Assembly: GCA_002404055.1 (NCBI GenBank) | Contig: DHIZ01000398.1 | Coordinates: 2,305 to 19,157 of the forward strand | DNA: 16,853 nucleotides | Source of the DNA: Chloroflexi bacterium UBA4733 | GTDB taxonomy: Bacteria; Chloroflexota; UBA4733 | Reading direction: 5' to 3' | Part shown: piece after piece, positions 6,355 through 16,853 of the stretch | Layout of the letters: every line of letters begins with the position of its first letter | Numbering within the stretch: position 1 is the first letter of the stretch | Program-made: the position numbers and the translations under genes | The notes under the pieces: model-generated | Told to the model about the DNA's origin: nothing | What the model saw: only the letters and a program-made list of their open reading frames with translations | Database searches by the model: none

Positions 6355-6472
6355 CGTGTAACGCACGTTTCGGCGCCGCCGCCCGCTCACTGGAGTGTGC
6401 CCGATCGTCCGTCTGCCGGCGTACCCTACGATACATGCCTTCGTTGCGGAACTCCGTTGAACGGCAGGTCCC

Positions 6473-6572
6473 GAACCTGGGCGTATGCAATACGCCCCTA
6501 CGCCGCCTGGTTGGACTGTTGTGCGCGCACACGAACGCCGCCTGTAGGGGCGTATTGCATACGCCCAGGTTC
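6473..6572. repeat. 29-bp perfect inverted repeat, MITE-like
   Basis: The arms 6473-6501 and 6544-6572 are exact reverse complements over 29 bases. Each arm is itself nearly palindromic (GGGCGTA-loop-TACGCCC). The 42-base centre contains a 12-bp palindrome (6520-6531), and a 10-bp direct repeat ACGCCGCCTG spans 6500-6509 and 6535-6544. Reading through it gives spurious peptides rich in WAYAIRPY/GAYCIRP-like strings, a pattern I associate with dispersed non-coding palindromic repeats in GC-rich genomes. No clear target duplication flanks it. The whole 298-base spacer 6355-6652 holds no gene. Confidence 0.8.
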
Positions 6573-6652
6573 CTCGTTCGCCCGCTTGTGCGATACTGCC
6601 TGAGCGCACCGTCCGCGACCTGGAACGTGGCGTTGCTGGAAGGGGGAATGAC

Positions 6653-8179
6653 GTGGATAGCACAGCCGAGTTTCCACTGAACGAACTGACTATCCAGGAA
6701 CTGCAGCAGCGCCTGGAGCAGGGTGATCTCACGTCGGAGCAACTCGTCGACCTCTATCTGCAGCGTATCGCGGCGCTGGATCGGCAGCGGCCGGAACTGC
6801 GCGCCGTCCTGGAGACCAACCCGGCGGCCTTCGAGATCGCCGCTCAGCTCGACAGCGAGCGGCGCGAGCGGGGACCACGCGGGCCGCTCCACGGCATCCC
6901 GATCCTGCTCAAAGACAACATTGATACGGCAGATGCGATGGGGACGCGGGCGGGGTCGCTGGCGCTGGCCGGCTGGCATCCCGCCGAGGATGCCTTTGTC
7001 GCACACCAGTTGCGCCAGGCCGGCGCTATCCTGCTGGGCAAGCTCAACATGAGCGAGTGGGCTAACTTCCGGTCAACGCGCTCGTCCAGCGGCTGGAGCG
7101 GCGCCGGCGGGCAGTGTCGCAACCCCTACGCCCTGGATCGCACGCCGGGTGGCTCCAGTTCCGGCTCCGGCGTGGCCGCTGCGGCCAGCTACGCCGCCGC
7201 CTGCCTGGGCACGGAAACCAACGGCTCGATCATCTCGCCGGCAGCCGCCAACGGCGTGGTCGGCGTCAAGCCGACGGTGGGCCTGACCAGCCGCCGCGGC
7301 GTTATTCCGATCAGCGCCAGCCAGGACACCGTCGGGCCGCTGGCCCGCACCGTCACCGACGCCGCCATCGTGCTGGCCGCCATCGCCGGCATCGACCCGC
7401 GCGACGCTGCGACCGCCCGCAGCGCCGGGCACACGCTGCCCGACTACCCGCGCTCTCTGAGCATTGACGGCGCGCGCGGGGCGCGCATCGGTGTGCCGCG
7501 CGAACGCTTTTTCGGCTACAGCGAGAAGGTCGACGCGGTGATCAACGATGCCCTGCGTGTCTGGTGCGACCTGGGGGCGACGCTGGTGGACCCGGCCAAC
7601 TTGCCGACCGTGGCGACCGAGAACACCAGAGAAGCCGAGATGAGCGTCCTGCTCCACGAGTACAAGGCCGGCCTCAACGCCTACCTGGGCGGCGTACACC
7701 CTGACCTGCCGGTACATAGCCTGGAAGACCTGATCGCCTTCAACGAGGCACATGCGGCGGAAGAGATGCCTTACTTCGGGCAAGAACTGTTGCTGATGGC
7801 GCAAGCCGTGGGCGGACTGGATGCCCCGGCCTACCTGGCTGCCCGCGAAAAGAACTGGGCAGCGGCTCGCCAGGACGGCCTGGACGCCGTACTGGCCGAG
7901 CACCAGCTTGACGCCCTCGTGATGCCGTCTTCCGACACGCCCTGGAAGATCGACTGGATCAACGGCGACCACGGGCGCGGCGGCGGCTCGGGTCCGGCAG
8001 CGCGAGCCGGTTACCCAGCCATCAGCATTCCTGCCGGCTTCGCCTTCGGGCTGCCGGTTGGCTTGTTGCTGGTCGGGCCGGCCTGGAGCGAGCCGAAACT
8101 GCTCCAACTCGCCTACGCCTTCGAACAGGCCAGTCAGGCTCGCCGACCGCCGCAGTTTCTGCGCGCGTCGTTCCCCTAG
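6653..8179 (+). CDS. amidase (amidase signature family)
   Basis: A 508-residue cytoplasmic hydrolase of the amidase signature family. The catalytic Lys-Ser-Ser triad is complete: K87 in GIPILLKDNID, the cis-serine S168 in the GGSSSGSG loop, and the nucleophile S192 in GTETNGSIISP; the 24-residue gap between the serines equals that of characterised members. The layout is closest to stand-alone amidases of the peptide-amidase/6-aminohexanoate type rather than GatA (no GatB/GatC nearby). The natural amide substrate is unknown. GTG 6653 is the start, with AGGGGG at 6641-6646. The gene converges with the small membrane-protein gene; the 63-base gap has no strong terminator. Confidence 0.93.
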   Translation: MDSTAEFPLNELTIQELQQRLEQGDLTSEQLVDLYLQRIAALDRQRPELRAVLETNPAAFEIAAQLDSERRERGPRGPLHGIPILLKDNIDTADAMGTRAGSLALAGWHPAEDAFVAHQLRQAGAILLGKLNMSEWANFRSTRSSSGWSGAGGQCRNPYALDRTPGGSSSGSGVAAAASYAAACLGTETNGSIISPAAANGVVGVKPTVGLTSRRGVIPISASQDTVGPLARTVTDAAIVLAAIAGIDPRDAATARSAGHTLPDYPRSLSIDGARGARIGVPRERFFGYSEKVDAVINDALRVWCDLGATLVDPANLPTVATENTREAEMSVLLHEYKAGLNAYLGGVHPDLPVHSLEDLIAFNEAHAAEEMPYFGQELLLMAQAVGGLDAPAYLAAREKNWAAARQDGLDAVLAEHQLDALVMPSSDTPWKIDWINGDHGRGGGSGPAARAGYPAISIPAGFAFGLPVGLLLVGPAWSEPKLLQLAYAFEQASQARRPPQFLRASFP

Positions 8180-8550: not shown

Positions 8551-9219
8551 TCAGCCTTCGATCTCCGGCGCTCGCCGGAGGGACCAGCGCACGGCCGGCG
8601 CGCCGGCGAGGAGTTGAGCCGCCCGCGTCCACGAGGTCGCTTCCCGGCCGCGCGGCTCCCCGCGGAAGCGGTAGTCGCTCTTCCGAATCAGCTCGCTCAG
8701 TTCCTCTTCCAGGGTGATGAACTGGGTGAGCGCCATCTCCGTCAGGGCCTGGACGTGTTCACGGCGGCGCGTGCCGCCGAGTGCCGTGCAGAGATGCGGC
8801 AGGCAGAGGCAAGGCGGCGTAGGGGAGGCGGTCTCGAGCACCTGCTCCGCCGCTACCGTCATGGCCATGCAGAAGGGACAATCTTCCCGGTCGGGGCGCA
8901 CTGCCGGAATTCTTCTCTGCCCAAAGCGTCCGGTTCCTACAGGTACACTTTCGTCGAGTCCTTGCGCGGCGGCCTGCAAGCGAGACACGATCATCGCTCG
9001 CACCGGTGCCGCCTGACGGACAAGCTGCCAGGCGTGGGCATTACAGACGCCGAACCAATTGAAGTCGCCCTGGAGGGCGGATGGGTTCGTTGCCTGCGTG
9101 AGCAAGGTGTGGACGGCTTGCTCCGCTGCCCGGCAGACCTGGCATTCCGGCGCGCCCTCTTCAACGGCTTCGGTCCGGTTCGCCGAACTCGCCGCCGCTT
9201 GTAACTGCTCGGTGATCAT
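8551..9219 (-). CDS. C-x2-C / C-x2-H double-module protein (copy A)
   Basis: A 222-residue soluble protein, family not firmly recognised. It has two modules of the form C-x2-C, a helical stretch, then C-x2-H: C26/C29 with C59/H62 and C114/C117 with C139/H142. Four soft ligands per module suggest two zinc (or other metal) sites. The arrangement resembles DUF6062-like proteins, but this link is tentative. Its second half has a shorter intervening stretch (22 residues) than its two relatives in this window. The ATG overlaps the stop of copy B as ATGA, so the two are translationally coupled and expressed in equal amounts. The operon lies behind a fluoride riboswitch, so a role in fluoride response is inferred. 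Confidence 0.8.
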   Translation of the reverse strand: MITEQLQAAASSANRTEAVEEGAPECQVCRAAEQAVHTLLTQATNPSALQGDFNWFGVCNAHAWQLVRQAAPVRAMIVSRLQAAAQGLDESVPVGTGRFGQRRIPAVRPDREDCPFCMAMTVAAEQVLETASPTPPCLCLPHLCTALGGTRRREHVQALTEMALTQFITLEEELSELIRKSDYRFRGEPRGREATSWTRAAQLLAGAPAVRWSLRRAPEIEG

Positions 9220-9887
9220 GGTCGAAGGCCCTTTCCACCGACAGCGACAGCAAGCGTCGATTGGAGCGCTGACGCCTCCGCCTGCTCGCTCTGCAACCCT
9301 TGCAGTAGTGCACTCCAGCAGCGCTGCTGGACCCGGCGTAGGAGGTCGCGACGGCCCCCCCGGCTCCGTTGCAGGGCCAGGTTGGCGTGGACCGTGCAGA
9401 GGCCGGACGACTGCTCGAAGGCAGCCGCAAATTCCTGGTTCCCCAGGTGCTGCAAGAACGTAGCCAGGTAATGCTCCTCCGACTGCTGCAGTCGCTGGCA
9501 GGCCAGGCAGAGTTCGGTCGGCGTCAGCGCCTTGAGGGCGTGGTCGGCGCCGCGCTGCCCGTCCGGATCGGTGAGCGCTCCCGCCATAGCGGCCACGCCG
9601 GATGACCTGGCCTCATTGATGGCGGGAAGGACGGTGTGCAGGAGGTCGCGGTAGATCAGCGCGGAGCCGAGCTCGTCGCCGAAGCTGAGGTACTGGAGGG
9701 TATGCCGGTTGCAGAAGCCGCGCGCCGCACGAACGCCGTCGCGGATACCGGGATCGTTGGTGTTCTCGTAGGTGAGGCTGTCGAAGAAGCGCTCCACAGC
9801 GCGCAAGGCGTAGCGACAGATGCCGCAGCCAGGCTTCTTGAAGCCGTCGAGCAAGTCAAAGTAGAGGCTGGTTCGTCCGCTTGTCAC
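9216..9887 (-). CDS. C-x2-C / C-x2-H double-module protein (copy B), DUF6062-like
   Basis: A soluble protein of about 223 residues with two modules: CGIC (22/25) with GFCNRH (C60/H63), and CLAC (128/131) with GLCTVH (C165/H168), numbered from the upstream GTG. The helical stretches between are 34 and 33 residues, the same as in copy C (13939-14862), which shows common descent. The first module (CGICRYALRAVERFF...DGVRAARGFCNRH, broken here by dots) resembles DUF6062-type proteins. Two GTGs lie in a row (9890, 9887); AGGAGGG favours 9887 by spacing. It is the first gene after the riboswitch/terminator leader at 9925-10026 and is coupled to copy A by an ATGA overlap. Function unknown; metal binding is inferred. 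Confidence 0.8.
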   Translation of the reverse strand: MTSGRTSLYFDLLDGFKKPGCGICRYALRAVERFFDSLTYENTNDPGIRDGVRAARGFCNRHTLQYLSFGDELGSALIYRDLLHTVLPAINEARSSGVAAMAGALTDPDGQRGADHALKALTPTELCLACQRLQQSEEHYLATFLQHLGNQEFAAAFEQSSGLCTVHANLALQRSRGGRRDLLRRVQQRCWSALLQGLQSEQAEASALQSTLAVAVGGKGLRP

Positions 9888-9924
9888 CACGTCCCTCCTT
9901 CTTTACGGAGCGATCTCGCCCAAC

Positions 9925-9972
9925 AAAAATGGCTCCTGGGCCGCTACCACTGGTAGCAACTCAGGAGCCATT
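9925..9972 (-). terminator. intrinsic terminator of the fluoride riboswitch expression platform (element A)
   Basis: On the minus strand ATGGCTCCTG (9971-9962, with flanking A) pairs with CAGGAGCCAT (9938-9929), enclosing a second GCTACC/GGTAGC hairpin, and is followed by a five-T run (9929-9925). The 5' arm reuses the GGCTCC strand that forms the riboswitch pseudoknot, so the two folds exclude each other. The T-run ends only 35-38 bases before the GTG of copy B, too close for a separate promoter in between, which argues for conditional attenuation rather than a simple operon end. Confidence 0.85.
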
Positions 9973-10026
9973 AGCGAAAGCCGCTGTTTGCGGAACGTAC
10001 TGTTCCGCCGGTGGGGTCCATCACCG
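9962..10026 (-). promoter_or_regulatory. fluoride riboswitch (crcB motif), element A
   Basis: Reading the minus strand: stem 1 is CGGTG/CACCG (10026-10022, 10013-10009) with loop ATGGACCC; next an inserted hairpin GCGGAAC/GTTCCGC (10008-9990); then AAAC (9989-9986); stem 3 AGCG/CGCT (9985-9973); then TAATGGCTCCTG (9973-9962). Loop GGACCC pairs with GGCTCC as the pseudoknot, five of six pairs, with a C-C at position 4. The family's long-range A-U linchpin has its counterparts in A9971 and T9963, eight bases apart as in the crystallised Thermotoga RNA, and the reverse Hoogsteen A/U pair in A10021 and T9973. Order and terminator overlap match the Pseudomonas syringae fluoride switch. Fluoride binding should open the downstream operon. 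Confidence 0.87.
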
Positions 10027-10045
10027 TGTCACCTAACTACTGGCG

Positions 10046-10054
10046 ATGATACCA
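10046..10054 (-). promoter_or_regulatory. probable extended -10 promoter for riboswitch A transcript
   Basis: Minus-strand TGGTATCAT (10054-10046) is an extended -10 element (TG, one base, then TATCAT). It would start RNA near 10040, about 14 bases before stem 1 of the riboswitch. The -35 region is poor (TTGATC lies only 14 bases upstream), as is common with extended -10 promoters. Confidence 0.45.
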
Positions 10055-10125
10055 TGCACCGGCATGATCAATACCGGGAGGGGCAGTAACAGCGGCTGCA
10101 TGGCTTGCGCTGTCAGAAGCGTACG

Positions 10126-11526
10126 TCACGACAGCGCAGGCGGTTCGTCCGCCCTGTTGTGCGTCTGGAGCCCGCGCTGCAATCGTGCGAGTGCTGCCTC
10201 GGCCGCAGCGGCGTCGTCCGCTGTCGCGCCGTCCGGCCCGTACCGCACTCGTTGGTAGCGTTCCGTCAGTGCCGCAATTGCTTCGCTGTCGACGAGGCTT
10301 TGACGTTGGAGCCGCTGACGGTATTCCAGCGGCGTCTCCGTGAACTGGCGCGCCTGCCCGTGGAACGCGGCCAGCGTGAGGAAGCGGCGATAGGCGGCGC
10401 GCACGGCATCCACCGTCTCGTCAACCCCCACTGCCGAATGGGGCTGTCGCCGCAAGGGTGCCAGGATATCTGCCCACGACCAAACGCTCCGCCGCTCCTC
10501 CGGCACGTCCGCATCCGGCGTTGAACCGTGGAAGCGCCGTAAGGCGGCCCGCAGCAGCATGATGATGCCCAGCAAGGCGACCAGCGCGATCACGATGCCC
10601 ACCATATGGGTGAGCCATGCCGGCGGTGGCGACGCCGTCCCGGACTGCTGCAGGTTGGCGAAGGGAGACTGGCCGGGTTGCAGCGGAGGCTGGGAGTGCT
10701 GTCCCTGCCGGAAGAAGAGCAGGAGATGATAGAGCAGATCTGCAGCCAGCGCGAACGGCAAAGCAACGACCACTATCAGGAAATCCACCACCGGCAGGAG
10801 GAGGTCAGCGCCGGCTTGGAGTGCGCGCAGCCCCTGGCGGTCAGTGAGGCCGGCGACCACAACGCCGACGACCAGCAAGCCACAAGCCATCCCGACAACC
10901 AGCCCCAGCCAACTGCGGCTGAGGGACCGCGCTTGCCGGTCGCGGCTGCCGGCGCGCACCTCCTCCAGGTCGGCCAGCGTGAGCGTCAACAACGCAGCAA
11001 ACAGGAAGACGATCACGGCCCATGGAAGCATCGCCTGTTGCTGTGAAGGGACAGGCGACCGGCCGAAGACGGCTGCAGCGGCGAGCCCGGCAACGCCAAT
11101 GCTGACCCGAGGGACCACGCCATGGTCGCCCGGCCGGCCACGGCCCAGCAGGGTGCCTTGCTGCCACAGCCCGCCAGCGCCGAGGAGGGCAAGCAGGTGG
11201 AACGAGACGCCTCCGGTTGGGATGGCAATCGCCTCCTTCACCAGCGAGGCCGGCCAGCCGGTCGCAGGCCCAGGAGCTAGCCAGGTGGCGGCGAGCGAGA
11301 CGAGCAGGCCGGCAACGACCTGGGCCATGCGTACCCGTTCCGACAGTTCCTTCTGGTCGACCAGCCGGGCCGTGAGGCTCGCCGAGACGACCAGGATCAG
11401 GAACATGACCAGCGGCGGGAGGAGCGGCGTGCCGGTGGCGGTATCCCCAGCGAGGTACGACCAGGGTGTCAACCAGGCGATCTCCAGCACGGCCAGACTG
11501 AAGGGGACGGCGAGGCGGCTAGACAA
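10126..11526 (-). CDS. membrane protein with C-terminal DUF4129 domain
   Basis: A protein of about 466 residues: many hydrophobic helices in the first 300 residues (first at about 5-25), a soluble linker rich in Gln/Pro, another helix (MVGIVIALVALLGIIMLL), then a C-terminal DUF4129 domain from about residue 368 (VDAVRAAYRRFLTLAAFHGQ, ETPLEYRQRL, LTERYQRVRYG). DUF4129 proteins are typical third partners of MoxR and DUF58 proteins, often fused to a transglutaminase-like core, which is absent here. The open frame extends upstream inside the DUF58 gene, but that part is Cys/Trp/Arg-rich shadow. The likely start is TTG 11526, which overlaps the DUF58 stop by eight bases. A role in extracytoplasmic protein or envelope maturation is inferred from the family. 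Confidence 0.83.
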   Translation of the reverse strand: MSSRLAVPFSLAVLEIAWLTPWSYLAGDTATGTPLLPPLVMFLILVVSASLTARLVDQKELSERVRMAQVVAGLLVSLAATWLAPGPATGWPASLVKEAIAIPTGGVSFHLLALLGAGGLWQQGTLLGRGRPGDHGVVPRVSIGVAGLAAAAVFGRSPVPSQQQAMLPWAVIVFLFAALLTLTLADLEEVRAGSRDRQARSLSRSWLGLVVGMACGLLVVGVVVAGLTDRQGLRALQAGADLLLPVVDFLIVVVALPFALAADLLYHLLLFFRQGQHSQPPLQPGQSPFANLQQSGTASPPPAWLTHMVGIVIALVALLGIIMLLRAALRRFHGSTPDADVPEERRSVWSWADILAPLRRQPHSAVGVDETVDAVRAAYRRFLTLAAFHGQARQFTETPLEYRQRLQRQSLVDSEAIAALTERYQRVRYGPDGATADDAAAAEAALARLQRGLQTHNRADEPPALS

Positions 11527-12757
11527 GTCGCACCACTTTCTGCTCGCGCCAATGCACCTGGTGGTCGGCGAGATGGAGCAGCGGAATGTCCAGCGTGCCG
11601 ACGCTCTCCTGTGTATCACCGACCAGGACGGCGACGACGCTGTGACCGGACCGAGCGAGAGTGCCGAGTGCATGGACTTTGCTGGCGTAGAGCAGGCCGG
11701 TGACGAGCAGCACAGTCGCGCCGCTGGGCCGGCGAATAGCGCCGGATTGCAGCGCCTGCGCGACGGGTCCGGTGGGATACGGCATCAACCGGCCGAGCAG
11801 CTCCAGCACCTGCCTCCGCCGCTCTGGTTGCGCACTCGGCGCGAGTTGGACAGCAGTAATATCCCCGTAGGGCTTGCCATTGCCATACAGACCCACGGGG
11901 ACCCCTTGCTGGCCCGCCCACTCGGCGAGCGATGCTGCCACCATCAGGACCAGCTCTTGCAGGTCCGGATCGCAGCCGGCCCACCAGCGGCCTTCCGGGT
12001 TCGTGTCGATGTCGACGCACAGGGAGAGGCGACGTACACCGACCGGATCGTACCGCTTGATTTGGAGGCGTTGGGCCCGTGCGGTCGCCGGCCAATGGAT
12101 CTGCCGCACGCTGTCGCCCGGCAGGTACTCGCGGACGCCGGCGACGCGGCTGGGATCGCTGAAGAGCGAGGCATGCACGACGTCGTCACCCAGCAGACGC
12201 CGGGCCGCGACGCCTGACACGTGGACCGGGAGGATGCGTGGATAGACGACCAGGCGGTCCGTCCCCTCTTCTTCCGCTTCGCGGCTCACCAGCCCGAACA
12301 TGTCGCCGGAGCGCAGGGTCAGTGGGCCGAACACGTGTTCGCCGCGGCTGGTGCAGGCGAGGCGATAGTGCCGGCGCACCTCTTCGTAGGGCCGTAGCGC
12401 CAGGAGATTGGTGAGCAGGCAACGGTGCGGCCGGTGAGACACAGTCACTCGTCCGCGGACCGGCGCGAGCACGGCCGGCAACTCATCCTCCGTCTCGATC
12501 CAGACCAGCGGCAGCAGCTTGCGGTTGGTGATTTCGACAACATACTCAATCTCCTCGCCGAACGGCACGTAACGGCTGCTGAAGAGACGCCGATAGGTCA
12601 CCTTCGTCAGACACCAGCGCCGCCACACTTCGGCCAGGAGCACCGCCAGCAGTAGCACCACCGCCAACGTGATCCATACCGCTTGCCGCAGGAGCACGCC
12701 GCCAAGCAACAGCAGGCTGAGGAGGAGCGCAGCAAGCCCGCTTTGTCGCTGGGTCAT
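11519..12757 (-). CDS. DUF58 domain-containing protein (vWA-like partner of MoxR)
   Basis: A 412-residue protein with two N-terminal membrane helices (about 7-22 and 26-43), a beta-rich region with TSRGEHVFGPLTLRSGDMFG (about 136-155), and the DUF58 hallmark REYLPGDSVRQIHW followed by ATAR (about 209-227). The C-terminal part has a vWA-like fold pattern (LSLCVDID near 246-253 supplies the MIDAS-type Asp residues). Such proteins work with MoxR AAA ATPases, probably as substrate-binding or metal-binding adaptors. The start ATG overlaps the moxR stop as ATGA, and its end overlaps the DUF4129 gene, so the three are tightly coupled. Confidence 0.93.
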   Translation of the reverse strand: MTQRQSGLAALLLSLLLLGGVLLRQAVWITLAVVLLLAVLLAEVWRRWCLTKVTYRRLFSSRYVPFGEEIEYVVEITNRKLLPLVWIETEDELPAVLAPVRGRVTVSHRPHRCLLTNLLALRPYEEVRRHYRLACTSRGEHVFGPLTLRSGDMFGLVSREAEEEGTDRLVVYPRILPVHVSGVAARRLLGDDVVHASLFSDPSRVAGVREYLPGDSVRQIHWPATARAQRLQIKRYDPVGVRRLSLCVDIDTNPEGRWWAGCDPDLQELVLMVAASLAEWAGQQGVPVGLYGNGKPYGDITAVQLAPSAQPERRRQVLELLGRLMPYPTGPVAQALQSGAIRRPSGATVLLVTGLLYASKVHALGTLARSGHSVVAVLVGDTQESVGTLDIPLLHLADHQVHWREQKVVRLV

Positions 12758-13755
12758 GGCGTCGTGACGGGTACGGGCTCGACCGGCGGGGCGATGGCGG
12801 CGATGACCTCGTCCAGCACGGCCGGAGCGGTCAGACGGCGCAAGCGGCTCTCGTCGGCTAAGACGAGCCGGTGCGCCAGGACCGGGCCCGCCAGCGCCTT
12901 GATGTCGTCGGGCAGCACATAGCTGCGGCCGTCAAGCAAAGCGCGTGCTCGCGCGGCGCGCACGAGGTTCACAGAGGCGCGGGGGCTGGCGCCAAAAGCC
13001 AATCCCCGATGCTCACGGGTGGCGCGCACGAGGTCGATGGCGTAGCCGGCGACGGTGTCGCTGGCGTACACGCTGCGGCAGGCGCGCTGCATCCGCGCAA
13101 TCCCCTCCGCATCCACCACCGCATCTGTTGGCGGTGCCACCGGTTCGCCGGCGAACCGGCGCACGATCTCCAGCTCCGCTTCGCGCGTCGGGTACCCCAA
13201 CGGCGCTCGCAGCAGGAAGCGGTCGAGCTGGGCCTCCGGCAGGGGAAAGGTGCCCTCCAGCTCGATGGGGTTTTGCGTCGCCAGGAGGAGAAACGGCCGG
13301 GGAAGGAGACGCCGACTGCCTTCCGTGCTCACCTGTCCCTCCGCCATTGCCTCCAGGAAGGCTGCCTGGGTGCGCGGGGTGGCTCGGTTGATCTCGTCCA
13401 CCAGAACGATCTGCGCAAAGACGGGTCCCGCCCGGAACTCGAAGGACTGCGTCTTCTGGTTAAAGAAGCTGAAGCCGGTGACGTCTGACGGCAACAGATC
13501 AGGGGTGCATTGGATGCGGCTGAAGGCGGCGCCGAGCGCGGCGGCGAGCGTCTTCAGCAGGGTGGTCTTGCCGGTACCCGGCACATCCTCGATGAGCAAA
13601 TGACCCTCGGCCAGCAGGGCCACGAGTGCGAGGTCGATGGTAGCGGCGGCGCCCACTATCACCTGGGCGATGGCCTGGCGCACCTGCTCCGCCAATTGCC
13701 GCGCCTCTGCCGCTTCCCTGCCTGTGGCGCTCTGTTGGTCTTGCTGATCGAGCAC
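12754..13755 (-). CDS. MoxR family AAA+ ATPase
   Basis: A 333-residue AAA+ chaperone-like ATPase. Walker A is EDVPGTGKTTL (about 56-66), Walker B is IVLVDEINRA (about 116-125), followed by the MoxR-typical EAMAEGQVS and FLLLATQNPIELEGTFPLPEA (broken here: sensor 1 region ATQNP) and a C-terminal lid helix domain with SPRASVNL. MoxR proteins remodel or insert cofactors into vWA-domain partners, here presumably the DUF58 protein. A longer frame to 13830 would be translated from the riboswitch terminator hairpin, so it is rejected; GTG 13755 has GGAGGAG eight bases upstream. First gene of a three-gene operon under riboswitch element B. Confidence 0.94.
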   Translation of the reverse strand: MLDQQDQQSATGREAAEARQLAEQVRQAIAQVIVGAAATIDLALVALLAEGHLLIEDVPGTGKTTLLKTLAAALGAAFSRIQCTPDLLPSDVTGFSFFNQKTQSFEFRAGPVFAQIVLVDEINRATPRTQAAFLEAMAEGQVSTEGSRRLLPRPFLLLATQNPIELEGTFPLPEAQLDRFLLRAPLGYPTREAELEIVRRFAGEPVAPPTDAVVDAEGIARMQRACRSVYASDTVAGYAIDLVRATREHRGLAFGASPRASVNLVRAARARALLDGRSYVLPDDIKALAGPVLAHRLVLADESRLRRLTAPAVLDEVIAAIAPPVEPVPVTTP

Positions 13756-13785
13756 TTGCGCTGCTCCTCCATGTCCGGCTGACGC

Positions 13786-13828
13786 AAAAAGGCTTCTGCA
13801 CGGGGAGATCATCCCCAACGCAGAAGCC
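13786..13828 (-). terminator. intrinsic terminator of the fluoride riboswitch expression platform (element B)
   Basis: Minus-strand GGCTTCTGC (13828-13820) pairs perfectly with GCAGAAGCC (13799-13791). An inner GGGGA/TCCCC stem is enclosed, and five T residues (13790-13786) follow. A further outer pair CGGCTGA/TCAGCCG (13836-13830 with 13782-13776) brackets the whole hairpin. The T-run ends 31 bases before the moxR GTG, leaving no room for an independent promoter, so transcription must pass through it. The 5' arm is the same strand that forms the riboswitch pseudoknot. Confidence 0.87.
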
Positions 13829-13877
13829 ATCAGCCGAAGCGATGGGCGGTGGTCGCCGCCCAGTGGGCCTCATCACT
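13820..13877 (-). promoter_or_regulatory. fluoride riboswitch (crcB motif), element B, upstream of moxR
   Basis: Minus strand: stem 1 AGTG/CACT (13877-13874, 13865-13862) with loop ATGAGGCC, inserted hairpin GGGCGG/CCGCCC (13861-13844), a CATC joint, a minimal stem GC-TTCG-GC (13840-13833), then TGATGGCTTCTGC (13832-13820). Loop GAGGCC pairs with GGCTTC over all six positions (one G-U), and the loop is the same as in the crystallised Thermotoga petrophila fluoride switch (ATGAGGCC). The conserved long-range A/U pair is A13830 and T13822, eight apart. Deviations are the short stem 1 and CATC in place of AAAC. A weak TAAGAT (13906-13901) could be its -10 box. It would couple moxR-DUF58-DUF4129 to fluoride. 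Confidence 0.8.
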
Positions 13878-13938
13878 CGCGGCAGTCTTGTCGCCCATCC
13901 ATCTTACCTCCCGGCTGCGTTCCTTGCTCGCGCAGCGC

Positions 13939-14862
13939 CTATGGACGCGGTTGATCGCCCCCCACCAGCATGATGGCGTGATGGCTGGCGCCTTCTTCCT
14001 CCGGACTCAGCAACTCCCGGCGTCGTGCATCGATCTTGAGGGCGAAACTGTTCAAGGCGGACGATGTCACCTCCATGTGACGAGCCGCCCCATTCAAGAG
14101 TATGCCTGTCGCCTGGTCTCCCAAGTCCTCGTACACAGCGGCGTGTAGGTGCAGCAGGCAGAGGGTGCGGGCGGATCCGTCCACGGCGGCCGCCTCCGCT
14201 GCGGCGAGCGAGGCCGAAATTCGGCCAAGGTGGCGCGCCGCTGCCTGTCGAGCGACAGTACACGCTGGGCAGCGCGCGGTGTTGGGCAGCAAAGCGTCTA
14301 GCCCCTTGACCGCCTCTCGTGCCGGCTGCGTGGCGAGTACGCGGAGCTGGCGAGCGAAGTGGTCAAGCAGGACGGCATAGCCCTCAGCCAGGCCGCGCTT
14401 CGAGGCGACTTCCTCCAGTTGCTGGGTATGGAGCGAGCAGAACCCGCCAGCTTCGGCGAAGGCGCGCTGCGCGGCCGGATTCTTGGCCAACTGGTATTGC
14501 CAATCACAGAGGAAATCGTAGGTCACTTGATCGACCGCCTGGCAGACGACGCAGCGTGCGTCGGCATCCAGCCGGTCTGGAGCGTCCTCTTCCCGCTGCT
14601 GCTCCTTGCTCTGATCATCGACGCCGGTACCTTCGTCGACGGTCTCCGGGTCCTTAACGGTGCTCTGGGCGAGCAGGCGGTCGCGGAGCGCTCTCGCCTG
14701 GGCGACCAGTTCGTCAAAGTCATCCACCGGAGCATTGGCGACTGGCTGCAGCGCCGCCTCGAGCCGGCGGAATTCCTGCTCCGTCACTTCCCTGGCTGCG
14801 CGTCCCAGCCGGTTGGTCGCCCAGGCGAGCGTGCTCTGGACGTGCTGCTCCATGGCAGCCAC
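13939..14862 (-). CDS. C-x2-C / C-x2-H double-module protein (copy C), main part of a frameshifted gene
   Basis: 307 residues in the present frame from GTG 14862. Residues 1-100 are charged and helical (coiled-coil-like, with an acidic stretch DDQSKEQQREEDAPDR). Then come two modules: CVVC (104/107) with GFCSLH (C142/H145), and CPAC (198/201) with CLLH (C235/H238). Inter-ligand distances (34 and 33 residues) match copy B exactly. No Shine-Dalgarno sequence precedes GTG 14862, and good coding sequence (RWARRFLQRHLEAAIERD) continues upstream in the same frame without a start, up to a stop near 14960. The upstream frame 14865-15397 then carries on. So the real protein probably begins at about 15397 and was broken by indels. 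Metal binding is inferred; function unknown. Confidence 0.75.
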   Translation of the reverse strand: MAAMEQHVQSTLAWATNRLGRAAREVTEQEFRRLEAALQPVANAPVDDFDELVAQARALRDRLLAQSTVKDPETVDEGTGVDDQSKEQQREEDAPDRLDADARCVVCQAVDQVTYDFLCDWQYQLAKNPAAQRAFAEAGGFCSLHTQQLEEVASKRGLAEGYAVLLDHFARQLRVLATQPAREAVKGLDALLPNTARCPACTVARQAAARHLGRISASLAAAEAAAVDGSARTLCLLHLHAAVYEDLGDQATGILLNGAARHMEVTSSALNSFALKIDARRRELLSPEEEGASHHAIMLVGGDQPRP

Positions 14863-14864
14863 CG

Positions 14865-15397
14865 CTACAGCAACGTCGCGCTCGATTGCGGCCTCCAGAT
14901 GCCGCTGCAGGAAGCGCCGAGCCCACCGGTCGGGCAGCAGTACAGGGGCGTGTCAGTCGTCTCGGCAGACGGCAACGCGAATCGATTCGTCAAGGCCGAG
15001 AGCACTTCTTCTCGTTGCTGGGGCAACTCGAGGCCTGGAAAGGACGCCGCTTGAACGTGCATGCTCGCTGCCAGGGCCTTGGGGGCCTGATCGAACAGCG
15101 TCTGCAGTTTGGCACGTAGGTCAACCATCTGCTGAGCGCTGAGCGCGTCCAGTGCGTCCCCCTGCTCACGCAACCAGCTTCGTCCCCGCTCGAGCAAGAG
15201 GGCCGCTGTCTGTTGCCGTGCGAGCTGATAGTAGTGGTCGATACTCTCGCCGGCGTGGGTCTCCTGCAGTGTCGCCAGGGTGGTACGGAGGGCAGCGGCG
15301 GTGTCGGCGGCGAAGGTTGCCAGCTCCGCTGCAAGTGCGCTGTGGACTGTTGCGGCTCCTCGGCCGCGTGCTGCGATGCGTCTCCGGCGAGTTCCAT
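14865..15397 (-). pseudogene. N-terminal part of C2CH protein copy C, separated by two apparent -1 frameshifts
   Basis: Three frames join into one plausible helical protein. From ATG 15397 the sequence MELAGDASQHAAEEPQQSTA has coding-like third-position GC. Near 15335 good coding shifts by -1 into a frame reading LAAELATFAADTAAALRTTL and on through REQGDALDALSAQQMVDLRAK to LTNRFA. At a CCCC run near 14943 the reading again shifts by -1, from a Cys/Trp-rich dead end (stop at 14865) to LLPDRWARRFLQRHL, which is the frame of 13939-14862. Restored, the protein would have about 486 residues with a long coiled-coil-like N-terminus. Real decay, sequencing error, or programmed shifting cannot be told apart here. 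Confidence 0.55.
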
Positions 15398-15402
15398 CGC
15401 CG
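15385..15402 (-). promoter_or_regulatory. remnant of a fluoride riboswitch: stem 1 only (element C)
   Basis: The minus strand has GGCGATGGAACTCGCC, identical over 16 bases to the first stem and loop of elements D and E, within CGGCG/CGCCG pairing, and at the same distance from its promoter. After stem 1 the other conserved parts (AAAC joint, short stem, UGAUGGCUCC strand) cannot be found. The ATG inside the loop (15397) is in frame with a protein-like sequence, so the remnant seems to serve as the start of the copy C gene. Not likely to bind fluoride. Confidence 0.55.
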
Positions 15403-15409
15403 CTGCCCT

Positions 15410-15438
15410 ATAGTAGCAAACGTGGGACGAACCGGCAA
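15410..15438 (-). promoter_or_regulatory. sigma-70-like promoter driving the copy C gene (minus strand)
   Basis: TTGCCG (15438-15433) and TACTAT (15415-15410) are separated by 17 bases. RNA would begin about six bases before ATG 15397, giving a nearly leaderless mRNA. The -10 hexamer is identical to that of the divergent promoter at 15463-15491; the two -35 boxes are 24 bases apart. Confidence 0.65.
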
Positions 15439-15462
15439 TCAGTCCACGCGGCGCTCCTTTGG

Positions 15463-15491
15463 TTGCGCCTGCGCCCACCGTCACGTACTAT
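15463..15491 (+). promoter_or_regulatory. sigma-70-like promoter driving riboswitch D
   Basis: TTGCGC (15463-15468), a 17-base spacer, and TACTAT (15486-15491). Transcription would start near 15498, right at the 5' edge of the riboswitch stem 1. Its -35 hexamer and spacing equal those of the promoter in front of element E. Confidence 0.7.
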
Positions 15492-15499
15492 GAAAGAGG

Positions 15500-15604
15500 T
15501 GGCGATGGAACTCGCCAGTGACGGGGATCGCCCGTCCAAACCGCGGCACACCGCTGATAGCTCCTGCGCGATCGGCCTCGCGTTATCGGGCCGGGGAGTG
15601 TGCC
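15500..15604 (+). promoter_or_regulatory. fluoride riboswitch (crcB motif), element D, translational type
   Basis: Stem 1 TGGCG/CGCCA (15500-15517) with loop ATGGAACT; inserted hairpin GACGGG/CCCGTC (15520-15536); AAAC (15538-15541); stem 3 GCGG/CCGC (15543-15554); then TGATAGCTCCT (15555-15565). Loop GGAACT pairs with AGCTCC except A-C at position 4, the same mismatch position as element A. The long-range A/U partners are A15557 and T15565. Downstream there is no terminator; instead GCTCCT (15560-15565) can pair with GGGAGT (15594-15599), which covers the Shine-Dalgarno GGGGAG of the gene at 15605, with a CGCGA/TCGCG hairpin inside. When fluoride holds CUCC in the pseudoknot the ribosome site would be free. 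Confidence 0.87.
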
Positions 15605-16186
15605 ATGCCGCGCGACGATGCCTTCGGCGACTTTCGCGAGTTGCTCTTGCTCCAGCAGACGCCGTTCCAGGCGCTGGTGGGCTCGGGCGCGCTTGGCTTG
15701 TTCCCTTTCACCGTCGCGGCCGCCGTTGTCGTGGCGGTGGCGCCGCACCACGATCCGGCCTGGGTGATCGCCGCCGTGGTCGGTTACGGCGCGGTGGTCG
15801 GCGCCGTCACCGCCTGGGCCTACCGCCGGGGCCAGATCCCGTATCGACGCGGTGACTGGGCGGCCGCCGCCGCCTTCACCGTCTTCCTGACACCAGCAGT
15901 GGTGATCGGCTCGCGGGCGGCGGGAGCCGAACTCGCTGTCGGGCTGGCCGCTGTCCTCAGCGTGCTGCCGAGCCTGGCCCTGGAAGTGTGCTGGCGTCCC
16001 CTGTTTCTTGCCGCCTTACGTCGGCTTTCGCACCTGAATCTGGATCTCCTGGTCCATGAGTCGTTGCGCGAGCATTACGGCGACGACTGGCAAGCCTACG
16101 CGGCGCACATCCGCGCCGACTTACGCGAAGCGCGGCGGCTACGGGAACTGGCCGAACGCGGACCGGCGAAGACGGACGAGCCGTGA
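15605..16186 (+). CDS. four-helix membrane protein of unknown family, fluoride-riboswitch controlled
   Basis: A 193-residue protein, not recognised. It has about four hydrophobic helices (23-46, 52-72, 85-102, 108-128), then a charged cytoplasmic tail (LNLDLLVHESLREHYGDDWQ, then REARRLRELAERG). It lacks the features of the known fluoride exporters: it is longer than CrcB/Fluc and shows no duplicated GxxGxxxRY-like pattern, and it is far too short for CLC-F. The ATG has GGGGAG (15593-15598) with a six-base spacing, and that site lies within the riboswitch fold, which decides the start. It is the only gene between element D and the convergent HAD gene. A fluoride-related membrane role is inferred only from the switch. 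Confidence 0.8.
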   Translation: MPRDDAFGDFRELLLLQQTPFQALVGSGALGLFPFTVAAAVVVAVAPHHDPAWVIAAVVGYGAVVGAVTAWAYRRGQIPYRRGDWAAAAAFTVFLTPAVVIGSRAAGAELAVGLAAVLSVLPSLALEVCWRPLFLAALRRLSHLNLDLLVHESLREHYGDDWQAYAAHIRADLREARRLRELAERGPAKTDEP

Positions 16187-16194
16187 CTGCGATG

Positions 16195-16677
16195 TCAAGG
16201 ACGCAGGGTGGCGGCCAGACGCGCCGGGTGCAACAGCAGGTCGAGCGCATCCGCAATCTGCTGGACGACAACATCGGCTTCCCGGAGCGCGACCGTGGCG
16301 AGTCCTTCCCGGCCGAGCACGACGATGCTGAGCGCAGCCGCGCGCAGCATCCACTGATCGTTGGCGCCGTTGCCGATGGCGACGACGCTATCGACGCCGA
16401 GCCGGTTGACGTAGGCTGCCTTCTGTTCGCCTCCCGGTGTCATCGGCCCCAGAATGGTGGCGACCAGTTGCAACTGCTCGTTGATCCGGTGCTGGGTGCC
16501 GTGCGTGTCGGCGGTGAGCAGATGCAGCCCCAGCGCTGGACGCAGTTGCTCCAGCCGCTCGGCAACCCCCGGCAGGAGCAGGCCATCCACCGCCAGCGTA
16601 CCGTTGACGTCGAGCACCAGATGCCGCAAGTGCAGGGTACCTCGACCGGGAATAACGACTTCAAGCACGATAGGCAT
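16195..16677 (-). CDS. HAD-family phosphatase, COG4087 type (soluble P-type ATPase-like)
   Basis: A 160-residue HAD hydrolase that matches the small soluble P-type-ATPase-like family closely: IPGRGTLHLRHLVLDVNGTL (motif I, D23 and N25; the DxNGT form is normal in this family), LTADTHGT (motif II, T55), K86 in EQKAAYV (motif III), IGNGANDQWML (motif IV, D107), and the family tail IADALDLLLHPARLAATLR. The substrate is unknown. ATG 16677 is chosen because it gives the family N-terminus and has GGAAAGGA just before it; a longer frame to 16746 adds poorly coding residues. A TATAGT (16737-16732) may be its -10. It sits between two fluoride riboswitches but has no visible switch of its own. Confidence 0.92.
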   Translation of the reverse strand: MPIVLEVVIPGRGTLHLRHLVLDVNGTLAVDGLLLPGVAERLEQLRPALGLHLLTADTHGTQHRINEQLQLVATILGPMTPGGEQKAAYVNRLGVDSVVAIGNGANDQWMLRAAALSIVVLGREGLATVALREADVVVQQIADALDLLLHPARLAATLRP

Positions 16678-16759
16678 TCCTTTCCGATGACACCCCTGCC
16701 TGCGGATGTCTTGAGCGACGTCCAGCGGCAAACTATACAACGGCAAACCGGTTGCGCCT

Positions 16760-16788
16760 TTGCGCGCAATCCTGAAAGCGGTTACGAT
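16760..16788 (+). promoter_or_regulatory. sigma-70-like promoter driving riboswitch E
   Basis: TTGCGC (16760-16765), a 17-base spacer and TACGAT (16783-16788), the same design as the promoter of element D. The -35 box lies in a palindrome TTGCGCGCAA (16760-16769). RNA would start near 16795, directly before the riboswitch. Confidence 0.65.
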
Positions 16789-16796
16789 GGCGCCAA

Positions 16797-16853
16797 CGGC
16801 GATGGAACTCGCCGGGGCGGGCGATGGACCGTCCGAACCGCGGTCCGCCGCTG
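16797..16853 (+). promoter_or_regulatory. fluoride riboswitch (crcB motif), element E, truncated at window end
   Basis: Stem 1 CGGCG/CGCCG (16797-16814) with loop ATGGAACT; inserted hairpin GGGCGG/CCGTCC (16815-16834, one G-U); GAAC joint (16835-16838); stem 3 GCGG/CCGC (16840-16851); then TG at the very edge, where elements D and B continue as TGAT(A/G)GC. It is about 75% identical to element D over 55 bases and the differences in stems are largely compensated. The gene it controls lies beyond the window. Confidence 0.8.

Follow-up and report, generated by a model that had tools for sequence, protein, structure and literature searches.

Fluoride riboswitch elements before DUF6062 and MoxR-DUF58-DUF4129 genes in a probable multi-operon fluoride island of a Chloroflexi bacterium

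The closest described counterparts of the locus analyzed here are gene sets placed behind fluoride riboswitches. The fluoride-resistance operon of Enterobacter cloacae FRM, as given in the available part of its description (PMC5533749), has one switch and one operon, ppaC-uspA-eno-gpmA-crcB-orf5249. The fluoride regulon genes named in the accessible text of PMC11139923 encode exporters, Na+/H+ antiporters, pyrophosphatase, HAD proteins, enolase and formate hydrogen lyase, and the same text describes fluoride defence as export, pH and ion balance, and larger amounts of the inhibited enzymes. We studied a stretch of 16,853 nucleotides from Chloroflexi bacterium UBA4733 (assembly GCA_002404055.1, contig DHIZ01000398.1, positions 2,305 to 19,157 of the forward strand), hereafter the window. 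It carries four elements of the fluoride riboswitch family, named A, B, D and E, the last of which is cut by the end of the window, and the remnant of another, C. Behind A lies a pair of DUF6062 genes, behind B a MoxR-DUF58-DUF4129 set, and behind D the gene of a hydrophobic protein that we call D193. We consider it very probable, on sequence comparison, that A, B, D and E each stand before an operon of their own as predicted fluoride-ON switches, and that the island raises several fluoride-defence operons together.

The locus differs from these systems mainly in its genes. As in E. cloacae FRM, several putative defence genes would be under a fluoride switch, and Usp and enolase genes also occur in the islands of relatives; unlike in that strain, several switches precede several gene runs, and DUF6062, the MoxR set and D193 are absent from the genes, other than orf5249, named in the part of PMC5533749 cited above. 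Similarly, the islands of relatives hold the CrcB, antiporter, HAD, enolase and Hyf-type genes of the second regulon, whereas DUF6062, MoxR/DUF58/DUF4129 and dynamin-like genes go unnamed in that portion of PMC11139923. An exporter operon of the classical type, with CrcB/Fluc or CLC-F behind a switch, is not seen in the window: no CrcB, CLC or NhaP-type match was found in it at an E-value of 1e-5, and the gene of E lies beyond its end.

The window was searched with the Rfam covariance models, among which RF01734 (crcB) represents the fluoride riboswitch (curated gathering cut-off of 34 bits; E-values computed over 4227 families). RF01734 matches A, B, D and E where an earlier note, made from the letters of the window, had placed them (Table 1). 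That note had proposed this search as its check at the four sites; matches were obtained at all of them, but only D exceeds the threshold. Its count of three complete elements, one cut at its end and one decayed agrees with the outcome, as our own scan (see below) recovers A, B and D, E aligns to the 5' part of the model, and C consists of stem 1. The shared stem 1 was also correctly described: in the RF01734 alignments of A, B, D and E it closes a loop starting with AUG, and the scan counts four pairs in each of the three complete elements. An exact copy of the hairpin GGCGATGGAACTCGCC is present at D, at E and at C; allowing up to three mismatches gives three occurrences against 0.42 expected. 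Stem 3 has 4, 3 and 4 of four pairs in A, B and D in the scan, and 4 pairs in the alignment of E. The 3' strands of A, B and D can form the pseudoknot, as claimed, with 5/6 (C·C at pair 4), 6/6 (one G-U) and 5/6 (A·C at pair 4) pairs. The A/U partners that close the fluoride site are likewise kept: the linchpin, A40-U48 in the B. cereus riboswitch according to the accessible part of PMC8752731, is present as an A-U at the same spacing of 8 in 25/25 aptamers (A, B, D and 22 aligned relatives). The extra hairpin, said to be shared by the first four elements, lies between stems 1 and 3 of A, D and E. The AUG-looped stem 1, stem 3, the linchpin and a pseudoknot strand otherwise engaged in a terminator thus agree with RF01734, and the window departs from it in the hairpin insert, in the scores of A and B, and in the pair-4 mismatch of A and D. 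A C·C or A·C mismatch at this pair, with the other pairs intact, is seen in 5/25 aptamers (window A and D, L045:5488, L045:17812 and L084:8868), which precede DUF6062 (two), D193, enolase and antiporter genes. As regards the other Rfam results, the MIR856 row is the terminator of A itself, and the remaining non-fluoride rows are far under the cut-offs of their families.

Since the structure line of RF01734 lacks the pseudoknot, we made a separate scan that required four stem-1 pairs, an AUG loop, stem 3 and at least 5/6 pseudoknot pairs. Its only matches in the window were A, B and D; it gave nothing in 1,934,620 bases of first-order Markov sequence of similar composition, and a single match in 10 other fetched loci (205,268 bases), at L006, which Rfam confirms at 46.4 bits. 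It misses true members, as the switches preceding DUF6062 in L002 and L005 are detected by Rfam only. The pseudoknot covaries across 25 aptamers, of which three are those of the window and six genomes supply the other 22. Stem 1 and the pseudoknot are paired in 96.4% of 250 cells, 24 of which changed on both sides, against 39-54% in slid controls. The stretch between stems 1 and 3 varies from 16 to 52 nucleotides in the aligned set. C has no RF01734 match and was passed over by the scan, which rules it out as a working switch.

A and B each run into a terminator whose 5' arm holds the pseudoknot strand, as would be expected of fluoride-ON switches. The region of the terminator of B (13775-13835) has a fold z-score of -6.1, and when the pseudoknot strand is held in the fold model, the full terminator of A or B no longer forms. 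A fluoride-ON design with a terminator overlapping the motif is known for the family from the available text of PMC2864571, and the ON design is also reported in that of PMC8752731. Without fluoride, the GGCUYCU strand of A and B would pair downstream into a strong terminator; with fluoride bound together with Mg, it would be locked in the pseudoknot, and read-through would reach the DUF6062 pair from A and MoxR-DUF58-DUF4129 from B, which we infer to be co-transcribed sets induced by the ligand. D has no terminator of this kind. Its pseudoknot strand could mask the Shine-Dalgarno sequence of the following gene, and our guess, from the fold model, is that control of D may be translational.

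Table 1. RNA elements, expression platforms and genes of the window, numbered from its first letter
Feature	Position	Strand	Evidence
Element A, fluoride riboswitch aptamer	9955..10034	-	RF01734 25.8 bits, E-value 0.0016; stem 1, extra hairpin, stem 3, pseudoknot 5/6
Terminator of A	9925..9972	-	5' arm AUGGCUCCUG = pseudoknot strand, then U run; fold z-score -6.3; 10-bp shared arm
DUF6062 protein, 224 amino acids, first gene after A	9216..9890	-	PF19538 58.2 bits, cut-off 27
Second DUF6062 protein, 222 amino acids, 4-base overlap with the first	8551..9219	-	PF19538 33.3 bits
Element B, fluoride riboswitch aptamer	13814..13886	-	RF01734 25.9 bits, E-value 0.0014; pseudoknot 6/6
Terminator of B	13786..13828	-	5' arm GGCUUCUGCGU includes pseudoknot strand, then U5; 11-bp shared arm
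MoxR-type AAA+ ATPase, behind B	12754..13755	-	PF07726 202.4 bits, above cut-off
DUF58 protein	11519..12757	-	PF01882 49.4 bits, above cut-off
DUF4129 protein	10126..11673	-	PF13559 49.0 bits, above cut-off
C, stem-1 remnant, hairpin identical to D and E	15385..15402	-	Stem 1 only
Likely relic of dynamin-DUF6062 gene	13939..15400	-	Two open reading frames, different frames; GTPase part absent; C at 5' end
Element D, fluoride riboswitch aptamer	15492..15573	+	RF01734 42.7 bits, E-value 4.4e-9; above cut-off
Shine-Dalgarno GGGGAG of D gene	15593..15598	+	Partly complementary to pseudoknot strand GCUCC (15560-15564); weak
D193, 193-amino-acid hydrophobic, likely membrane protein	15605..16186	+	No Pfam family; 36% relative in the MoxR run of G006
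HAD-type hydrolase, island neighbour	16195..16746	-	PF00702 27.2 bits; E upstream on other strand
Element E, 5' part of fluoride aptamer, ends at window end	16789..16853	+	RF01734 22.0 bits, E-value 0.027, model positions 1-47

We then placed the window among its relatives by searching 400 genomes from the phylum of G001, a Chloroflexi metagenome-assembled genome (MAG) and the nearest genome compared, with RF01734 at an E-value of 0.001. The family is present in 128 of them (88 above the cut-off). Most positive genomes have one switch (93) or two (17), in line with what the earlier note gave as usual; three are found in 10, four in 6 and seven in 2. The 18 genomes with at least three copies often have them clustered, and among the 150 matches listed 23 pairs lie within 10 kb of each other, compared with about 0.6 expected at random. 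G001 itself (L001/L045) has a counterpart of A at 35.3 bits, above the cut-off, before a DUF6062 pair, in front of the gene that is 77% identical to that of the window, and the same 20-kb contig holds four more switches, before a hydrogenase run of Hyf type that includes two Usp genes, before enolase and before a second HyfC-like gene; the fourth of these (18.9 bits) has no close gene on its strand. In G004, five candidates within 6.3 kb, one of them weak (16.8 bits), precede MoxR-DUF58-DUF4129, DUF6062, HAD, CrcB and one unassigned gene. A multi-operon fluoride response with undescribed parts, as the earlier note suggested, is the best-supported reading of the window: clustering recurs, and the non-exporter genes of A and B stand behind switches in other genomes.

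The genes behind the switches were examined for 128 collected riboswitches (123 in 88 fetched regions, the four of the window and that of L006); clusters and the highest scores were given priority in choosing the regions, and the class counts are therefore not a random sample. A terminator sharing the pseudoknot strand was found in 54 of them (16 have no scorable strand). In the 1.4 kb behind the switch, the reference gene with the best match is CrcB in 27 cases, an Na+/H+ antiporter in 25, DUF6062 in 15, MutS in 10, HyfC in 8, MFS in 7, MoxR in 6, HAD in 3 and an unnamed 474-amino-acid type in 3, followed by dynamin-like, enolase and CLC genes (2 each) and D193 (1), with none in 17; some of the genes so assigned sit at least 680 nucleotides from the switch. 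Within 260 nucleotides, the counts are 13 for DUF6062 and 5 for MoxR. For 127 riboswitches, we also counted the genes up to 3 kb away by direction (same-strand downstream / opposite downstream / same-strand upstream / opposite upstream). The values for MoxR (14/0/1/4), DUF58 (14/0/1/3) and DUF6062 (19/2/1/5) are strongly directional and resemble those of CrcB (30/1/1/2). HAD genes (4/3/7/7) have no preferred direction, which rules them out as general targets, with single cases in L047 and L082.

DUF6062 lies within 400 bases behind a switch in at least 7 of the 107 matches listed, and at least 6 more are within 2.6 kb under strict filters. Out of 24 DUF6062 loci, 5 have a switch at most 400 nucleotides upstream; in 2 others a same-strand switch lies at a greater distance upstream. 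At the level of genomes, RF01734 occurs in 42/90 with DUF6062 and in 86/310 without it (odds ratio 2.28, p 0.0012); this statistic is uncorrected for kinship, and we therefore used adjacency as evidence instead. In L007, an Anaerolineae MAG, two tandem switches (56.3 and 51.3 bits) lead a run in which DUF6062 comes after CrcB, and in L023 DUF6062 follows an Na+/H+ antiporter, CrcB and a CBS-like open reading frame (named by eye) with a 45.2-bit switch in front. The two tandem aptamers of L007 (3358-3488, +) are only 7 bases apart. The switch of L006 (9920-9987, +), in the MAG bacterium UBP3, by its name outside Chloroflexota, has a terminator, and about 15 bases separate its end from the matched start of DUF6062. 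L108, L112 and L119 have riboswitch-Na+/H+ antiporter-Usp-DUF6062 runs in which the switch-to-DUF6062 spacing is 1755 bases in all three genomes. The protein family itself has CxxC and CxxH sites (C22, C25, C60, H63, C128, C131, C165 and H168) that are invariant in 32 aligned sequences.

Behind B, the order of the MoxR AAA_3, DUF58 and DUF4129 genes was confirmed. The likely start of MoxR is the GTG at 13755, preceded by GGAGGAG; the start in the list of open reading frames, 13830, falls within B. MoxR with DUF58 is found behind a fluoride switch in the window and in 11 other genomes, and 7 of these 12 switches are above the Rfam cut-off (34.1-40.7 bits). In five genomes (G192, G397, G318, G129 and G372) the arrangement is riboswitch-DUF6062-MoxR-DUF58-DUF4129 in a single same-strand run, and in the window, G002, G004, G005 and G119 the switch comes immediately before MoxR. 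In G006, a 34.1-bit switch is followed by DUF4129 (47.7 bits), MoxR (220.3), DUF58 (55.6, all by Pfam) and a relative of D193 with 36% identity; because the run holds this relative, the D gene is tied to the genes of B. On a tree of 45 MoxR proteins (44 of 45 matches, the fragment G005:C327 being left out, plus that of the window, on a long branch), the switch-linked proteins need 5 changes, at least 4 of which are forced by well-supported branches. Such a pattern may reflect repeated association of switch and MoxR, or losses.

It could be argued that the genes of A and B are bystanders, with switches duplicated onto whatever lies nearby, and that neither DUF6062 nor MoxR takes part in fluoride defence. 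The strong clustering of switches would be expected under such duplication, the stem-1 hairpins of D and E are identical, and the HAD genes of the islands show no orientation. We consider this unlikely: MoxR, DUF58 and DUF6062 are directional, they recur behind lone switches within the 8-16 kb fetched (L135, L140, L147, L148 and L100), the switch-linked MoxR proteins fall in more than one group of the tree, the window row being on a long branch, and DUF6062 and CrcB share switch-led runs.

Several observations nevertheless weigh against a multi-operon fluoride response. A, B and the truncated E score below the cut-off, and the pair-4 mismatch of A and D is shared by 3/22 relatives. For D, the Shine-Dalgarno sequence has a modelled unpaired probability of 0.25 when free and 0.43 with the pseudoknot strand held, a small effect, the fold of the whole leader is not better than that of shuffled sequences (z 0.09), and its gene has one supporting relative only. 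The gene of E is outside the window. Among the MoxR cases, the switches of G004 and G005 score 16.8 and 17.8 bits (E-values of 0.094 and 0.037 per one genome), and the weakest, G108 (L096), is 680 bases from its switch, found by our own scan only; at an E-value of 1, RF01734 also matches 13/14 well-known control genomes. Many copies have no switch: 34/45 MoxR copies in 12 genomes lack one in front among the matches listed, 17/24 DUF6062 loci have no RF01734 match at an E-value of at most 1 in the stretches searched, which differ in length, and 48/90 genomes with DUF6062 have none at 0.001, so that neither family is fluoride-specific. The enzyme-rescue role discussed below is an analogy with the biology of other MoxR proteins. 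Finally, the islands of relatives also hold CrcB and Na+/H+ antiporter genes, which qualifies the multi-operon interpretation.

The first of these points could mean that decay or a change of use has left A, B and E as constitutive attenuators, and that only D responds to fluoride. The C·C mismatch of A fits such decay, and C is proof that copies do decay in the island. This is less probable still, as A and B retain stem 1, stem 3, the pseudoknot, the linchpin and a strand-sharing terminator, something that a dead aptamer could do without; the counterpart of A in G001 is above the cut-off, and the pair-4 mismatch is also present in D, which scores 42.7 bits. That the elements are another ligand class resembling the fluoride aptamer is highly improbable: no exporter gene was found in the window and fluoride binding is a prediction, but D is above the Rfam cut-off and, across the phylum, the element precedes CrcB, Na+/H+ antiporter, CLC, MutS, enolase and Hyf-type genes, targets that match those reported for fluoride switches in the available text of PMC2864571 and PMC11139923.

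If, as we favour, the island is a fluoride response of several operons, its riboswitches are labels for the genes that a lineage raises against fluoride, and those labelled repeatedly are the MoxR-DUF58-DUF4129 set and DUF6062. MoxR AAA+ ATPases with VWA-type partners (CbbQ-CbbO, RavA-ViaA, CoxD-CoxE) remodel or mature metalloenzymes, and CbbQ-CbbO frees Rubisco. As in these pairs, MoxR adjoins a partner candidate in the window, the DUF58 protein; unlike them, the run is behind a fluoride switch and comes with DUF4129 and DUF6062. MoxR-DUF58-DUF4129 is likely a protein-remodelling machine and, by analogy, the set and DUF6062 would probably remodel or re-activate fluoride-poisoned metalloenzymes, as opposed to exporting the ion. 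A more specific proposal, which we hold as a tentative possibility, is that together with DUF6062 (and D193 and the dynamin-DUF6062 protein) they might form a fluoride-specific repair machine, in which an AAA+ activase extracts metal-fluoride inhibitor complexes or reloads metal and the Cys/His-rich DUF6062 acts as a metal-binding adaptor. If true, fluoride defence would include, besides export and extra target enzyme, a third arm placed on islands of separately switched operons in Chloroflexota. A literature search, whose reach did not include the primary gene list of Baker 2012, found no link of DUF6062 or the MoxR set to fluoride; DUF6062 is named in no paper of the searched literature, and fluoride riboswitches and MoxR are co-mentioned there only without connection, also when AAA or chaperone is added. 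The RNA elements themselves are real and of an ordinary kind. Within this literature, the repeated capture of DUF6062 and MoxR-DUF58-DUF4129 by fluoride switches is likely undescribed. DUF6062 and some MoxR proteins thereby gain a testable cellular context, and riboswitch research gains a lineage with one RNA class before several adjacent gene runs.

C and the two open reading frames behind it are likely a decayed fifth fluoride unit. It is in the second frame that similarity to the C-terminal portion of a dynamin-DUF6062 fusion is found: positions 14652-13951 have 35.5% identity to residues 369-607 of the L082 protein, and the DUF6062 score of the relic (24.4 bits) is below the cut-off of 27. 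The L082 fusion itself is behind a fluoride switch, as is a dynamin-type gene in L048. The difference in frame could alternatively be an assembly error.

At the other end of the island, E probably drives a Hyf-like membrane hydrogenase-type operon, judging by synteny with the relative G001. In G001 (L045), as in G108 (L095), a riboswitch close to the HAD gene faces HyfC.

Two further observations were made. In L150 (3110-4534, +), a 474-amino-acid protein with no Pfam match is directly behind a fluoride switch, and weak relatives of it are near switches in L084 and L088. In the window, positions 6380-6740 contain a short, partly inverted repeat with similar peptides on both strands in the list of open reading frames, which resembles an intergenic repeat element.

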